Shown here piece by piece: positions 4,395-38,445 of a stretch of DNA of 46,097 nt. The position numbers and the translations under genes are program-made. Under the pieces are notes generated by a model. That model saw only the letters and a program-made list of their open reading frames with translations. It was not told the DNA's origin and did no database searches. The DNA comes from a bacterium (GTDB lineage: Bacteria > UBP6 > UBA1177), in assembly GCA_017405875.1 (NCBI GenBank), contig JAFQZM010000034.1:1-46097 (forward strand), written 5' to 3'. Positions within the stretch are counted from its first letter, which is position 1. The number at the start of each line of letters is the position of its first letter.

Positions 4395-6431
4395 TTATTT
4401 CTTCTCTTCTTTCTTGTCAGCTTTTTTATCAGCTTTTTTGTCTTCTTTGCCGGATCTGCCCCATTCCCAGCCGAATTCGACATCTGCACCTAAATCCCAC
4501 GATGAAACGTAGTGACCTTCAAGGTTGTCGTGCGGACGCGGATTTTTAGCATTCCAGAAAGTCCAGTGTTTGCCGGCGTAGCCGTTGATGTAGAGGAACG
4601 GAAGGATCTGAAGTCTGACGACGCCTCTGAAAAGCGAACTTACGTGGCTGTCGGAGAAAAGTTCTTTCGCGCTTCCGAAGCCGCGTTTGTAGTATGAAAC
4701 CATCATCTTCAGGATCCAGAGATCGGGCAGTTCGAGGTGTGCGAAAAGCGATGAAGATTCGGGAAGTTTTTCGTAACCTACAGAAAGCGATATCCATGTC
4801 TTGAAACTGTAACTGAGTTCTCCGTAGAAAGAACCGACGAACTTGTCGTCAGAATCGTTCATAAGGTGCCAGTATTTCGAGCGGCCGTCGGGCTGGAAGT
4901 CTTTTGCGCCGTAGATGTTCGTCATCATCTCTATACGTTCGATATCGTAGAAAGTATCGAAGAAAGAAGGAATGTACGAATCGTGGTGAGCTCTTCCTTC
5001 AAGCTGGATTCTGATCGCGTGCTGATTCTTGCTGTCGAGGTTGAATCTTCCCAAAAGACCGAATGTGAAACCGCCTTTTACGAAGTCTTTCTTGAACCAC
5101 GAATAGTCGGTGAAAGCCTTGATATCGACTTTTTCGTTTTTGAACAGTTTAAGCTCGAAGTCGATGCCCTGCATATAAAGGAATTCGTCTTCCAGAATTA
5201 TCGGACGACCTTTTGAATCAACCGATATTCTGGGAAGTCTGCTGTCTTTACCGTTGATATACTCATCGGGATCGTAGTCATAGTATTTTTCATACTGCAA
5301 TTTTGTCGGAGCGTTTCTGTCGGCAACGAAAGAATATCCGAACGAAACACTTCTTGCATGGTAGTTTCCGATTGCGGAGAAGGGCTTTAAGAAAACGAGA
5401 CCGCCGAAAATGTTTCCTCTCGCGACATCTCCCAGAAGTGCTTCAAAACCGCCGTAATCGAAGTACCAGTTGAGTTTTGCCGACATTGTTGAAAACGTCG
5501 AGTCGTGGTTCGGAATGTAGCGTTTGAGGATCGTTCCGTGTCCGATCGTCTGTGCGAAGTTGCTGCCGATCGAAAGATAAAGGTTGTCTTCGGAAGTTCC
5601 TATCTGCAAATATCTGAGGATTTTGAGGTAATCCTGCCACTCATCCCAATCTTCAGTTCTGAAGCGGATGCTGTGGTCGTTGTCGTTAATGTCTGTGCTG
5701 ACAAGACGGACATTGAGCGGAACGTGAAGCCCGAAAATAAGATCGAGTTCTTTTTCGCTGACCGGCTCTTTTATGAGTTTGTCGAAGTGCATTGAAAATT
5801 TCGGGGTGATAACGAGGTAAAGTTCATCATCCATCAATTTGACACCGGCAGCAAGACCTGCGCTGTTGTATGGTGAAATGATTTCGTTCGCACCGATGTT
5901 TGCGACTTCGCCTTTCCAGAAAGTCTTTTCGATCTCTCTGATTCTCATATCGTTGTCTGATTTTTCCTTTTTGTCAGCCGGTTTCGGCTCTTCAGCTGCC
6001 GCGGTCTTTTGTTCTGCAGGCTTCGGCTCCTCAGCTTTTGCAGGCTGCTGCTCAGCCGGTTTCGGCTCTTCAGCTGCTGCGGGCTGCTGCTCAGCCGGTT
6101 TCGGTTCTTCAGCTGCTGCGGGCTGCTGCTCGGCCTGTTTGGGTTCTTCATCTGCTGCGGGCTGCTGCTCGGCCTGTTTGGGTTCTTCAGCCGCTGCTGG
6201 CTGCTGCTCTGCGGGTTTCGGTTCTTCTGCCGCTGCTGCGGGCTGCTGCTCAGCCGGTTTCGGTTCTTCAGCTTTTGCAGGCTGCTGCTCGGCAGGCTTC
6301 GGCTCTTCAGCTGCTGCGGGCTGCTGCTCTGCGGGTTTGGGTTCTTCTGCCGGAGCGTTTTCCTGCGCGAAAAGAGTTCCGAAGAGTAATGCAAACAATG
6401 TCAAAAAGGTCAAAATCTTCAAATTTTTCAT
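4395..6431 (-). CDS. Outer membrane beta-barrel protein with Pro/Ala/Glu repeat arm
   Basis: A 678-residue exported protein. Residues 1-22 are a signal peptide ending in 'LFAQ'. Residues about 26-157 are roughly ten copies of a 13-residue unit of the form AEEPKPAEQQPAA. From about residue 165 on, alternating hydrophobic and aromatic strands ('GFTFGLLGRFNL', 'GSFYGELSYSFKTWISLSVGY', 'WDLGADVEFGWEWG') suggest a large beta barrel, and the last 18 residues are Lys/Asp/Glu-rich. The repeat arm probably spans the periplasm or touches peptidoglycan. A charged tail after the last strand is unusual, because barrel proteins normally end in an aromatic residue. GGAG lies 9 bases before the ATG. Specific substrate or family is not recognised. 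Confidence 0.7.
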   Translation of the reverse strand: MKNLKILTFLTLFALLFGTLFAQENAPAEEPKPAEQQPAAAEEPKPAEQQPAKAEEPKPAEQQPAAAAEEPKPAEQQPAAAEEPKQAEQQPAADEEPKQAEQQPAAAEEPKPAEQQPAAAEEPKPAEQQPAKAEEPKPAEQKTAAAEEPKPADKKEKSDNDMRIREIEKTFWKGEVANIGANEIISPYNSAGLAAGVKLMDDELYLVITPKFSMHFDKLIKEPVSEKELDLIFGLHVPLNVRLVSTDINDNDHSIRFRTEDWDEWQDYLKILRYLQIGTSEDNLYLSIGSNFAQTIGHGTILKRYIPNHDSTFSTMSAKLNWYFDYGGFEALLGDVARGNIFGGLVFLKPFSAIGNYHARSVSFGYSFVADRNAPTKLQYEKYYDYDPDEYINGKDSRLPRISVDSKGRPIILEDEFLYMQGIDFELKLFKNEKVDIKAFTDYSWFKKDFVKGGFTFGLLGRFNLDSKNQHAIRIQLEGRAHHDSYIPSFFDTFYDIERIEMMTNIYGAKDFQPDGRSKYWHLMNDSDDKFVGSFYGELSYSFKTWISLSVGYEKLPESSSLFAHLELPDLWILKMMVSYYKRGFGSAKELFSDSHVSSLFRGVVRLQILPFLYINGYAGKHWTFWNAKNPRPHDNLEGHYVSSWDLGADVEFGWEWGRSGKEDKKADKKADKKEEKK
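5963..6360. repeat. 39-base coding tandem repeat in the outer membrane protein gene
   Basis: About ten copies of a 39-base unit (13 codons) encode AEEPKPAEQQPAA-type units. Copies differ by small changes: PKP to PKQ in two neighbours, QQPAA to QQPAK in two, one extra Ala codon in one. The near-identical DNA would allow copy number to change by slippage or recombination without breaking the frame. The repeat also creates long open antisense frames that are not genes. Confidence 0.9.
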
Positions 6432-19009: not shown

Positions 19010-19020
19010 ATGCTTTTTTC

Positions 19021-19079
19021 GCCGCCGTCGTAATCCCGAGATCCCGTGATTACGTGATTCCGATAAAATTGGCGGCGGC
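19021..19079. repeat. GC-armed octamer array 1
   Basis: Perfect 7-base inverted arms GCCGCCG (19021-19027) and CGGCGGC (19073-19079) enclose five tandem 8-base units at 19030-19069: gtaatccc, gagatccc, gtgattac, gtgattcc, gataaaat. All begin with G and have A at position 4; all but the last end in C. GTAATC at the left pairs with GATTAC in unit 3. The array lies between two divergent promoters and its right arm overlaps the -35 box of the rightward one. Confidence 0.8.
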
Positions 19080-19127: not shown

Positions 19128-20093
19128 ATGGAAAAAAATTCTTTGATTTTCGTTGCCGGTCACAAAGGGCTTGTCGGCAGCGCACTTGTCCGCGAACTCA
19201 AGTCAAAAGGTTACAACAACCTCATAATGAAAACTTCTTCGGAGCTTGATCTTACGAATCAGGTCGAAACGGAGAAATTTTTCGCAGAAAACAGACCGGA
19301 ATACGTCTTTCTTGCAGCGGCGCGCGTCGGCGGCATAGGTGCGAACAACAGTTTCCGCGCCGACATGATCTACAACAACCTTATGATCGAATCGAACGTG
19401 ATCCACAATTCGTATAAATTCGGCGTCAAAAAGCTCCTTTTCCTCGGTTCGAGCTGCATTTATCCGAAGTTTGCTCCGCAGCCGATGAACGAAAACGTGC
19501 TTCTTACGAGCGAACTCGAATACACGAACGAACCTTACGCGATAGCCAAAATCGCGGGACTCAAAATGTGCGAATCCTATAACATTCAGTACGGAACCGA
19601 CTTCATTTCAGTCATGCCGACCAATCTTTACGGCGAAAACGACTTGTTCAATCTCGAAAAAGGTCACGTTCTACCGGTTATGATAAGGAAATTTCACGAG
19701 GCGAAAGTTCAGGGGCGCGATTTCGTCGAACTCTGGGGAACGGGCAAACCGCGAAGAGAGTTCCTTTACAGCGGCGATTTAGCCGAAGCTGTCGTCAAAA
19801 TCATGGAAGAAGTCTCTTTCTCCGATCTGACCAAAGGAATGACCGAGATCCGCAACACACACATAAACGTCGGAACAGGCGAAGACATCACGATTTACGA
19901 GCTTGCCTACATCATCAAAGACATCGTCAGTTACGACGGAGACATCGTCTGGGACAGTTCGAAACCCGACGGAACGCCGCAGAAACTTCTCGACATTTCG
20001 AAAATAAAAAGTTTCGGCTGGAAACCGCGCACGAAACTCACCGACGGAATCGAGCACGTTTACCGCTGGTATGTCAGAAATAATGCAGATTAG
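19128..20093 (+). CDS. fcl: GDP-L-fucose synthase (epimerase/reductase)
   Basis: Converts GDP-4-keto-6-deoxymannose to GDP-L-fucose with NADPH, supplying fucose for surface polysaccharide. The 321-residue protein is an extended short-chain dehydrogenase: cofactor loop 'VAGHKGLVGSALVREL', 'LAAARVGGIGANN', 'LFLGSSCIYP' (catalytic Ser near 108), and the catalytic pair Tyr137 and Lys141 in YAIAK. 'PTNLYGENDLF', 'GKPRREFLYSGDLAEA' and 'INVGTGEDITI' are typical of WcaG/Fcl. The partner GDP-mannose dehydratase is not in the window. GGGGG lies 7 bases before the start. Identification is firm. Confidence 0.93.
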   Translation: MEKNSLIFVAGHKGLVGSALVRELKSKGYNNLIMKTSSELDLTNQVETEKFFAENRPEYVFLAAARVGGIGANNSFRADMIYNNLMIESNVIHNSYKFGVKKLLFLGSSCIYPKFAPQPMNENVLLTSELEYTNEPYAIAKIAGLKMCESYNIQYGTDFISVMPTNLYGENDLFNLEKGHVLPVMIRKFHEAKVQGRDFVELWGTGKPRREFLYSGDLAEAVVKIMEEVSFSDLTKGMTEIRNTHINVGTGEDITIYELAYIIKDIVSYDGDIVWDSSKPDGTPQKLLDISKIKSFGWKPRTKLTDGIEHVYRWYVRNNAD

Positions 20094-20105: not shown

Positions 20106-21011
20106 ATGCTTCTTTATGCAGACAAGATTTTCTCGAAAGAATGGTTTAAAAGTTTATATTTGATTATTCAGGGAGCGCTGATTGCCGCTTTCGGCTACAA
20201 CTTTTTTCTTATTCCTTATAAGATAATTCCCGGCGGTCTCATGGGTCTCAGCAGCGTTTTCTACCATTTGGTGGGAATTCCGGTCGGTCTTCTCACGATA
20301 ATTCTCAATATCCCGCTTATCCTGCTTGGCATGAAGATTCTGGGCAACCGTTTCGGCTACAAAACGATACTCGGAATGACTCTTCTTTCGGTTTTCAACG
20401 ACGGAATGAACTATTTCTGGCACGACGTTACGCTGACAGACGACATTTTTTTGAGCTGCATCATCGGCGGAACCCTGGTCGGAGCAGGTGTTGCTTCTAT
20501 TTTCAAGGCTAAGGCGACTACCGGCGGCACCGACATCATAGCCCAGCTTTTCCACGTTAAATTCAAGTTTTCGACAGGAAAAGTCGTCCTTTTTGCAAAC
20601 ATAATCTTCCTTTCTCTCGGTGCTTTGTCGATCCACTTGAAAAGTCCCGAAACTACCGAATTTTTCAAAATGATAGTTTACGCGATAGTCGCGCAGTTCA
20701 CAACGGCGAAAGTACTTGACGTAATCCTTGAAGGAACCTCCTATTACAAAGGGATTTTCATCATTTCGAACAAGTATGACGAGGTCAAGGAAAAGCTTCT
20801 CAACCAGATGCGACGCGGCGGAACGATGATCCACGGACGCGGAATGTTCAAGGACGACGAGCGCAAAATCATCTTCACTGCAGTGAGCAGGCGCGAATCG
20901 GCATTCCTCAAAGAGTACATCAAATCGATTGATCCGCAGGCTTTCATCATCATTTTCCAGACAAACGAAATTTACGGGCAGGGATTTCTGCCGGTTAAGG
21001 ATATTGAGTAG
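20106..21011 (+). CDS. YitT-family integral membrane protein (DUF161 + DUF2179)
   Basis: A 301-residue inner membrane protein. About five or six hydrophobic helices fill residues 15-210, with the family landmarks 'FLIPYKIIPGGLMGLS', 'LNIPLILLG' and 'KATTGGTDIIAQL'. The C-terminal soluble DUF2179 domain has 'YDEVKEKLLNQMRRGGTMIHG' and 'SIDPQAFIIIFQTNEIYGQGF'. The family is widespread and may transport small solutes, but the substrate is not established. It starts 12 bases after fcl and is probably co-transcribed with it. It converges on the patatin gene; the space between is filled by octamer elements. Confidence 0.88.
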   Translation: MLLYADKIFSKEWFKSLYLIIQGALIAAFGYNFFLIPYKIIPGGLMGLSSVFYHLVGIPVGLLTIILNIPLILLGMKILGNRFGYKTILGMTLLSVFNDGMNYFWHDVTLTDDIFLSCIIGGTLVGAGVASIFKAKATTGGTDIIAQLFHVKFKFSTGKVVLFANIIFLSLGALSIHLKSPETTEFFKMIVYAIVAQFTTAKVLDVILEGTSYYKGIFIISNKYDEVKEKLLNQMRRGGTMIHGRGMFKDDERKIIFTAVSRRESAFLKEYIKSIDPQAFIIIFQTNEIYGQGFLPVKDIE

Positions 21012-21074
21012 CGGCGCTGAATCTTGCCGGGATCACGAGATCCCGTGATTCCGCAATCCCGAAGCGCCGCTTTT
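21011..21074. repeat. GC-armed octamer array 2A, terminator-like
   Basis: Perfect 8-base inverted arms GCGGCGCT (21011-21018) and AGCGCCGC (21063-21070), the right one followed by TTTT. Inside are four tandem octamers at 21029-21060: gggatcac, gagatccc, gtgattcc, gcaatccc, all starting with G, with A at position 4, T at 5 and C at 8. GGGATC and GATCCC form an inner hairpin. A 14-base string, gagatcccgtgatt, is shared with array 1. The left arm begins on the last base of the yitT stop codon, so a terminator role for that gene is plausible. Confidence 0.8.
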
Positions 21075-21134
21075 GCCGCCGCCGATATCTCGATATATCG
21101 TTATCTCGTTATTTCGATATTATTTTGCGGCGGC
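21075..21134. repeat. GC-armed octamer array 2B
   Basis: Perfect 8-base inverted arms GCCGCCGC (21075-21082) and GCGGCGGC (21127-21134) enclose five octamers at 21084-21123: gatatctc, gatatatc, gttatctc, gttatttc, gatattat. Again every unit starts with G and has A at 4, and only the last lacks the final C. The array covers the patatin stop codon and the right arm encodes its last alanines. Confidence 0.8.
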
Positions 21135-21980
21135 TAAGAATTCTTTTATTTCCTCAAGGTGTTCCGCCGCAACTCTGCGTCCTTCTTCGTAGACGCGCCT
21201 GAGTTCGTCTTTGTTCTTTTCTGTTCTGCTGATTCCGAGCGGTTTTTCGGGGCAGATGATGAATGCCGCGCCCTGTTTTTCGCGTGAAAAAATGTAGCGC
21301 CTCTGTTCGTTGTAGACTTCGTGGCGTACTTTCAGCGCCTTTATAAGTGTCGGATATTTGCGGAGCAGGATTTTCATCAGCGGCAGAAATTTTATCGGCT
21401 GCTTTGTGAAATCGCGCGGCTGGGTGAGGAGTACGATATTTTTTGTAAAGCCTATGCTTTCAAAGTATTCGAGCGGGATCGAATCGGTCGAACCGCCGTC
21501 GATATATTTTCTTCCTTCGATTTCAACAGGTCTCGAGACTCCGGGCATCGAGGCTGAAGCTCTCATCCAGAGCGTGTCTTCTTCGCGGCAGTCGACCAGT
21601 TTTTTGTAGTGCGTGATTCCTGTGTCGGCATCTGTGACGACGACATAAAACTCCATCGGATTTTTGATGTAGGTGTCGTAGTCGAACAGGTCGAGCTTGT
21701 TCGGAATCTGATTGTAGCAGAAATCGACATTGTAAAGGTCTCCAGAAGTAAAAAGCGAATGAAAGCTGCAGTAGCGCTTGTCTCCGGCATATTTCAGGTT
21801 GTACCGGATCGCTCTTCCTATCTGTTTCGATTTCAGGTTGCAGCCGAAAGTCGCGCCGGCAGAGACGCCGATCGCGCCGTCAAAAGTGATGCCGTTTTCC
21901 ATGAGCACGTCAAGCACGCCCGTTGTGAACATTCCGCGCATTGCGCCGCCTTCAAGCACGATCCCCGTTTTTTCCGCCAT
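21120..21980 (-). CDS. Patatin-like phospholipase (YjjU/RssA type)
   Basis: A 286-residue cytoplasmic or membrane-associated lipid acyl hydrolase. The oxyanion-hole loop EGGAMRGMFT is at residues 10-19, the nucleophile Ser40 in GVSAG, and the catalytic Asp161 in DGGSTDSIP, so the Ser-Asp dyad is complete. No signal peptide is present. The last residues (Leu-Ala-Ala-Ala-Lys) are encoded by the right arm of octamer array 2B, so that element has shaped the C-terminus. GGAGG lies before the start. Family is firm; substrate unknown. Confidence 0.9.
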   Translation of the reverse strand: MAEKTGIVLEGGAMRGMFTTGVLDVLMENGITFDGAIGVSAGATFGCNLKSKQIGRAIRYNLKYAGDKRYCSFHSLFTSGDLYNVDFCYNQIPNKLDLFDYDTYIKNPMEFYVVVTDADTGITHYKKLVDCREEDTLWMRASASMPGVSRPVEIEGRKYIDGGSTDSIPLEYFESIGFTKNIVLLTQPRDFTKQPIKFLPLMKILLRKYPTLIKALKVRHEVYNEQRRYIFSREKQGAAFIICPEKPLGISRTEKNKDELRRVYEEGRRVAAEHLEEIKEFLAAAK

Positions 21981-38365: not shown

Positions 38366-38376
38366 TCAAAAAAAAC

Positions 38377-38445
38377 GTAACGACGTAACGACGTCACGCC
38401 GTAACGAAAAGCAAGAAAAACGTAACGACGTCACGCCGTAACGAT
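38377..38445. repeat. Octamer array 3 (two blocks, no GC arms)
   Basis: Four octamers at 38377-38408 (gtaacgac, gtaacgac, gtcacgcc, gtaacgaa), a 13-base A-rich spacer, and three at 38422-38445 (gtaacgac, gtcacgcc, gtaacgat). A 24-base string is repeated exactly at 38384-38407 and 38421-38444. Each unit starts with G and has A at 4 and C at 5; the final C is lost only in the last unit of each block. It lies between convergent purC and the ankyrin gene. No perfect GC arms and no clear hairpin flank it. Confidence 0.8.

Follow-up and report, generated by a model that had tools for sequence, protein, structure and literature searches.

Short octamer-array elements with a conserved CG/AT spacing, and an oppositely oriented pair between convergent yitT- and patatin-family genes

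Contiguous short repeats can be bound by dimers of ribbon-helix-helix proteins, as in the case of the met boxes of MetJ. Another type of short repeat comprises the Rickettsia palindromic elements and MITE-like sequences, which are small and palindromic, are found also inside reading frames, and exist as homologous copies that are not known to have a periodic degenerate core. In parS of pSM19035, as it is described in PMC9499535, contiguous heptads are bound by ribbon-helix-helix dimers, one dimer each; the unit is the 7-bp non-palindromic WATCACW, there are six sites of 7-10 repeats, and four contiguous heptads are given as the functional minimum. REPs are characterized in PMC3733652 as palindromes of 20-40 bp, most of them with a GTAG or CGTC tag, the CGTC REPs being said to have no dedicated transposase.

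We consider a window of 46,097 nucleotides, that is, the whole stretch of DNA that was analysed, where a yitT-family gene and a gene of a patatin-like phospholipase converge. The gap between them is filled by two elements, 2A (21011-21070) and 2B (21075-21134) (Table 1). Direct reading confirmed what had been noticed from the sequence alone, namely, that the two elements abut with only four T between them and take up the whole gap, and the coordinates bear out that 2A starts on the last base of one stop codon, while 2B ends inside the other gene: the arm GCGGCGCT begins with the final G of TAG, the stop codon of yitT (21009-21011), and 2B overlaps the patatin-like gene by 15 bases, so that the last codons of the latter (AAAK-stop) come from 2B.

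Table 1. Genes, elements and element parts in the window
Feature	Positions	Strand	Remark
Array 1, an element of this kind with its core at 19029-19062	19020..19079	+	divergent gap upstream of the epimerase-family gene 19128-20093
yitT-family membrane protein gene	20106..21011	+	YitT_membrane and DUF2179 domains
2A outer arm GCGGCGCT	21011..21018	-	read directly; predicted to pair with 21063-21070
2A long linker, minus-strand GCAAGATTC	21019..21027	-	similar to the RYAAGATT-like linker seen in numerous other elements
2A core (four octamers in 34 bp; grammar of class E, CG(NNATNNCG)x4)	21028..21061	-	pattern match
2A inner arm AGCGCCGC	21063..21070	-	read directly, predicted fold
TTTT spacer between 2A and 2B	21071..21074	.	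read directly
2B inner arm GCCGCCGC	21075..21082	+	read directly
2B core (four octamers in 34 bp; grammar of class E)	21083..21116	+	pattern match
2B long linker ATATTATTTT, includes the patatin stop codon (21120-21122, minus strand)	21117..21126	+	read directly
Patatin-like phospholipase gene	21120..21980	-	Patatin and DUF6363 domains
2B outer arm GCGGCGGC, within the patatin ORF	21127..21134	+	read directly
Two class-O octamer arrays (CGTNACGN)n	38376..38443	.	fill another convergent gap of the window

As had been proposed, 2A and 2B share a common plan, comprising a core of 34 bp, one short and one long linker, and inverted GC-rich arms, each 8 bases long. The short linker is one base in 2A and is absent in 2B, and the long linker has 9-10 bases. 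Since the long linker is on the left in 2A and on the right in 2B, the elements are of the same kind and oppositely oriented, a relation missed by the sequence-only reading, and TTTT separates their short-linker ends, which are turned towards each other. The core, hereinafter class E, is CG followed by four repeats of NNATNNCG, that is, CG-NN-AT-NN octamers closed by a fifth CG, and this grammar is self-complementary. The five units of 2B, the last of them degenerate, had been counted correctly; we re-read them as four octamers (21083-21116) and an AT-rich linker. No match to an Rfam RNA family scored above the gathering score in the whole window.

In the whole 2.51-Mb genome, the four-unit pattern had 37+39 matches (both strands) and its reversed control, 0+0; this whole-genome count is unbiased. 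Segments self-similar at lag 8 were observed 14 times in 240,342 bases of the genome, compared to 0-6 for other lags from 4 to 20, and none in each of three shuffles; alternation of AT and CG at step 4 yielded 47 arrays in 51 stretches, compared to 0-3 at steps 3, 5, 6, and 7, while nine other dinucleotide pairs in the same stretches yielded 0-4 arrays and the shuffles, 0, 1, and 1. The densities in these two scans are biased upward, as the stretches were partly picked for matching.

Among the 61 genomes searched, the octamer grammar is present in all 15 genomes of the genus and in none of the 46 others, which include four genomes of the same family. Of the 28 genomes of the phylum, only the 15 that belong to the genus have the 34-bp pattern, whereas its reversed control matched (2+2) only in one genome of the same family (G018; here, G000 denotes the genome analysed, other G numbers, compared genomes, C numbers, contigs, and L numbers, sequence stretches). 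The number of perfect 34-bp cores is 29 in the analysed genome and varies from 4 to 56 in the 14 other genus members, the lowest counts (4) being under ten. The core lengths, measured from CG to CG in runs of at least two octamers (n = 32), are 34 bp in 22 cases, 18 bp in six, 26 bp in three, and 42 bp in one; they come from 615,393 bases taken as whole stretches, and, as the contigs were partly chosen for holding elements, no density is claimed. Inverted arms enclose 75 of the 94 cores with context, 19 being without arms by the rule used, and the commonest distance from arm to arm is 46-47 bases (44 of 100 class-E arm pairs, some elements being counted repeatedly). A similarity-based repeat search recovered only a part of this repeat family in the analysed genome, and no description of such octamer arrays was found among the titles and abstract openings listed by searches of open-licence literature. 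Publications listed for the name UBP6 dealt with the ubiquitin protease so called or with other eukaryotic subjects, and the genus itself seems to be known from assemblies only.

The pattern was also found in 50 stretches of IMG/VR at 68 places, 33 with at least three different units and four with arms; many of the remaining places are simple repeats. Given the mostly unarmed arrays in viral contigs without an assigned host, the grammar may reach beyond the genus.

Two other core classes were observed. Class-O arrays, (CGTNACGN)n, occur in ten of the 15 genus members and in none of the 46 other genomes, and no class-O array was enclosed by any of the 181 GC-arm pairs in the sequence gathered for the arm survey. 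The nonamer class, (ACHHTADDG)n, is situated at some places between GC arms of the same kind; its exact pattern occurs only in G000 and G006 (two of 61 genomes), with one control match, in G014. In two cases a class-E core and a period-9 array occupy the same place in different genomes: one is on contig C15 of G000, compared with G006 and G010, and the other is a place in the phage contig L226, where the G005 and G004 copies have a period-9 array and the G002 copy has neither.

Similarly to REPs, REPINs, and the GTAG- and CGTC-tagged repeats, as these are described in PMC3733652 and PMC3116915, the octamer elements are short intergenic palindromes present in tens of copies, which lie near stop codons and are enriched in convergent gaps, often form doublets, and sometimes fall in coding sequence. 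The copy numbers and the arms given above agree with this, as does the location of 21 of 26 cores outside predicted coding sequence. Unlike the REPs of PMC3733652, they consist mostly of a tandem core with half of its positions free, and no Y1 (RAYT-type) transposase was matched in the analysed genome (PF01797, E 0.001), while five of 14 control genomes were positive. Hence a RAYT-driven REP was rejected; the missing Y1 match counts against GTAG REPs only, because CGTC REPs are described as lacking a dedicated transposase (PMC3733652). As for an unpaired GTAG or CGTC tag at one end, none was noticed, and composition reveals no fixed tetranucleotide in the flanks of 75 elements.

The likeness to parS of pSM19035, as given in PMC9499535, is in the contiguous short units, four octamers being usual here and four heptads being the minimum there; the differences are the 8-bp unit, the palindromic grammar, and the 4 to 56 perfect cores per genome. 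As in arrays of the ribbon-helix-helix type, the number of units is largely fixed (34 bp in 22 of 32 runs) and positions are constrained. The search for the Omega family (PF07764) gave no match in the analysed genome and none in the controls either, and hence is uninformative. The Rickettsia palindromic and MITE-like elements resemble the octamer elements in size, palindromy, and copies in ORFs, and are set apart by the general description of their homologous copies given at the outset. Inverted arms are also a MITE feature; no target duplication was clear in five filled/empty comparisons made by eye, and at some of these sites the surroundings are T-runs or A-runs.

For the 26 cores of at least 26 bp in the stretches taken whole, we observed 12 in convergent, five in tandem, and four in divergent gaps, and five inside predicted coding sequence. 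Convergent gaps hold 12 of the 21 intergenic cores but constitute only 52 of 500 gaps (P = 2e-7, cores of doublets being counted singly). In the catalogue of the analysed genome (42 distinct cores), 20 cores are in convergent, 11 in tandem, and seven in divergent gaps, three are in coding sequence, and one is at a contig end. The genes were called by a codon-usage script, which was compared with the ORF list only around the 21011-21134 locus. The copies in coding sequence (five of 26) are at odds with a purely intergenic role.

The yitT gene adjoins the patatin gene in 11 relatives of the same genus from ruminant guts, among them assemblies from yak rumen and reticulum, water-buffalo abomasum, reindeer, and red deer, and the gap is differently occupied. 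By eye, there is a class-E array in G002 and G003, E followed by an O-like array in G004 and G013, class O in G007, G008, and G012, and shortened remnants in G009 and G014; in G006, there is no element, and the patatin frame extends into yitT. A strict pattern count in the same gap yielded E in G002, G003, G004, and G010, O in G007, G008, G012, and G013, and neither E nor O in G006, G009, and G014. The gap of G010 contains one array, the left end of which is that of 2A, while the right end, from the last octamer on, is that of 2B; most simply, a deletion passing through both cores would have fused the left portion of 2A to the last octamer of 2B. In front of the epimerase-family gene, array 1 lacks one octamer in G002 and is accompanied by a second element; G010 has no element there, and a T-run adjoins an A-rich stretch at the empty site. 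Elsewhere, relatives lack single octamers or entire elements.

Thus, the elements come and go as units, since the arrays in this gap differ among relatives, deletions follow the octamer, the core can be of another class, and one site is empty. The sequence-only reading had suggested exactly this comparison of the gap in related strains, and the unit-wise gain and loss across the 11 relatives answers it; its proposal of insertions of a palindromic mobile repeat gains support from the differing gap contents, the empty gap of G006, the fusion in G010, and a copy on a phage contig. The idea that every core arose independently, without inheritance, was rejected, as some orthologous cores are identical: those at C15:74502 and C19:8337 of G000 equal those at C27:109305 and C41:8289 of G006, respectively. 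The data show an element family with a usual core of 34 bp, which undergoes gain, loss, fusion, and core replacement at orthologous sites.

To compare the fixed (CG/AT) and free positions, the orthologous places of 42 G000 cores were sought by flanking DNA in G006 stretches fetched whole; 15 of them were anchored at both flanks, three at one flank, and one was too far apart. Eight of the 15 were ungapped and were counted, while seven were gapped or absent and were not, although the grammar, judged by eye, is largely preserved in two or three of those with gaps. In the eight cores, one of 140 fixed positions changed, compared to 45 of 124 free positions (Fisher P = 3e-16; P = 4e-8 against the one-branch fourfold expectation of 0.134). 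Four of the eight G006 partners had led to their contig by a grammar match; in the other four, which were free of choice by pattern, the changes are at one of 68 fixed positions and at 23 of 60 free ones (P = 5e-8 and 6.5e-4 in the same two comparisons), all in one species pair. In a larger set, which comprises every ungapped G000-G006 pair after deduplication and takes in loci fetched by their match to the grammar, the changes are 2/234 at fixed positions, 65/208 at free ones, and 53/392 in linkers and arms, while 1143 of 4272 fourfold sites of the window genes changed between these genomes. The first count had been 2/738 versus 233/656 for fixed and free positions, with pairs taken from both directions, 26 of 67 left out as gapped, and loci fetched by grammar; the constraint is therefore judged from the eight cores and the four free of choice.

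Hence there is a strong constraint on the CG/AT positions between the two species, while on the free positions little is visible beyond a lineage-dependent avoidance of certain letters, and their rate of change is similar to that of fourfold sites or higher. The change at free positions is uneven (0 to 13 of 16 per core pair), suggesting that some elements have drifted and that others have had their cores replaced. A strict alphabet, with no G before CG and no C after it, holds for at least 98% per position in G000, G006, and G010; as a defining rule it was dropped, since it fails in G005, G008, G009, and G012 (words such as ATGTCG/CGACAT). Something in the cells probably reads the spaced CG/AT pattern, although the selection on CG/AT could also stem from an enzyme moving the element.

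With moderate confidence, we interpret 2A and 2B as oppositely oriented copies of a mobile, recombining short element, the core of which would be a DNA array of palindromic sites for a putative dimeric protein. The core would function as double-stranded DNA with four adjacent two-fold-symmetric sites; presumably, one dimer would bind per octamer, the binding being co-operative, and four sites in a row would be needed, like the four heptads of pSM19035 (as given in PMC9499535). Insertion and recombination would carry the elements to gene ends, where they would be tolerated. More tentatively, the genus may keep the many chromosomal copies, written in a degenerate code of usually fixed total length, for a putative dimeric protein that would form a higher-order complex at gene ends, with an insulating, nucleoid-organising, or partition-like role, the sister codes, that is, the CGTNACGN octamers and the period-9 ACHHTADDG, swapping with it at the same site. 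What usually defines a family of short intergenic repeats is sequence conservation, while here it is the spacing rule, two fixed and two free bases over usually 34 bp, that is conserved; hence the family is a natural experiment on the positions needed by a DNA reader, and the identity of the putative reader could be tested directly with a labelled oligonucleotide.

Alternatively, the family could be a selfish miniature element of the REP or MITE type without a host role, where CG/AT is kept only for recognition by the moving enzyme, a possibility that we regard as real but doubtful. It is consistent with the empty sites, with the preference for convergent gene ends, as described for REPs in PMC3733652, and with the AT-rich relatives, where the elements form a recognisable, ordinary dispersed family (17 copies from the best matches are approximately 82-90% like the L226 element). 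The L226 copy itself is on an IMG/VR contig that is Mu-like: the portal and F-like proteins are clear, the Mu transposase (DDE_2) is just above the cut-off, and the DNA is 87-97% alike to pieces of several genus members. In this contig, an armed class-E element (1171-1290) is situated between a transposase-like and an ATPase-like gene. However, the CG/AT positions are constrained at sites common to two species, where a resident selfish copy should decay; the missing Y1 match and the lack of a target duplication recognisable by eye in the five comparisons also count against this explanation.

The sequence-only reading had also raised a bidirectional terminator built from repeats, which, as an intrinsic terminator, is not supported and seems improbable. 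Both whole elements, arms included, indeed fold far better than shuffles (z = -5.67 and -4.53 for 2A and 2B on the plus strand; -3.91 and -4.70 on the other strand), TTTT follows 2A on the plus strand, and 42 of 78 gene ends lie within 20 bases of an element or overlap it. But an intrinsic terminator would have a GC stem, a short loop, and a U-tract, whereas in the 75 armed elements four T are seen within 8 bases after the hairpin on only five of 150 strand-sides, compared to 35 of 150 for four A (AAAA is found in 11.4% of intergenic 8-mers), and the usual arm distance far exceeds a terminator loop. Besides, 16 of 72 armed elements are in divergent gaps, and the cores have no complementarity. 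No terminator was called at 21011-21134 by a scan with the loop limit of 3-8, which would miss a long-loop hairpin. The 2A element, with TTTT on the plus strand, could still act weakly as a terminator for yitT.

Slightly less probable still is an RNA hairpin at the 3' end of transcripts that would protect from exonucleases or recruit an RNA-binding protein. The GC arms could close a stem, many elements adjoin stop codons, and the same grammar is present in both transcripts; on the other hand, there is no covariation in the core. In 100 cores from three genomes, the reverse-complement agreement of free dinucleotides stays at about the chance level in each of the 16 pairs (z from -1.9 to 1.6), whereas agreement between octamers in direct orientation is raised; in the first 39 cores, two complementary pairs were raised (38 vs 26.2 and 37 vs 24.8 of 78), and this was gone in the 100 cores. 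The cores also fold more weakly than surrogates keeping the grammar (-10.61 vs -11.78 kcal/mol, all 30 surrogate sets being lower), and a hairpin core was rejected by these two tests. Elements in tandem gaps have the long linker on the upstream side in ten cases and on the downstream side in eight, hence no clear orientation relative to transcription, and elements are found between divergent genes as well. Because there is no covariation and no folding excess in the core, few U-tracts, and no orientation bias, we infer that the core acts as double-stranded DNA that would be read in either direction, as in the preferred interpretation of an array of protein-binding sites.

A plain octamer microsatellite arising by slippage, without constraint, is highly implausible: the direct octamer-to-octamer agreement in the same 100 cores is indeed raised in all 12 pairs (z from 2.2 to 5.0), and orthologous elements differ by single octamers, but the lengths cluster at 34 bp, changes are nearly absent from half of the positions and present at the others, and the units differ mutually, unlike those of a young microsatellite.

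Several other repeats were noted. At two orthologous places, L117 3427-3613 (G000:C40) and L092 13744-13897 (G006:C1), class-E cores are repeated, partly at 51 bp; in G000:C40 they are inside a predicted gene, and their fixed positions are mostly kept relative to G006:C1. The viral contigs L220, L238, L241, L242, L243, L249, and L255 carry mostly unarmed CG-NN-AT-NN arrays with unlike units, often with G before CG. A different short dispersed repeat, around CTCTCCAGTGTGGAGAGGG, is situated in L226 at 4978-5050 and also matches G020, G021, G022, and G023, which belong to other families of the order. Finally, the window contains a 39-bp tandem repeat of 9.5 copies (5974-6347) within a predicted gene.
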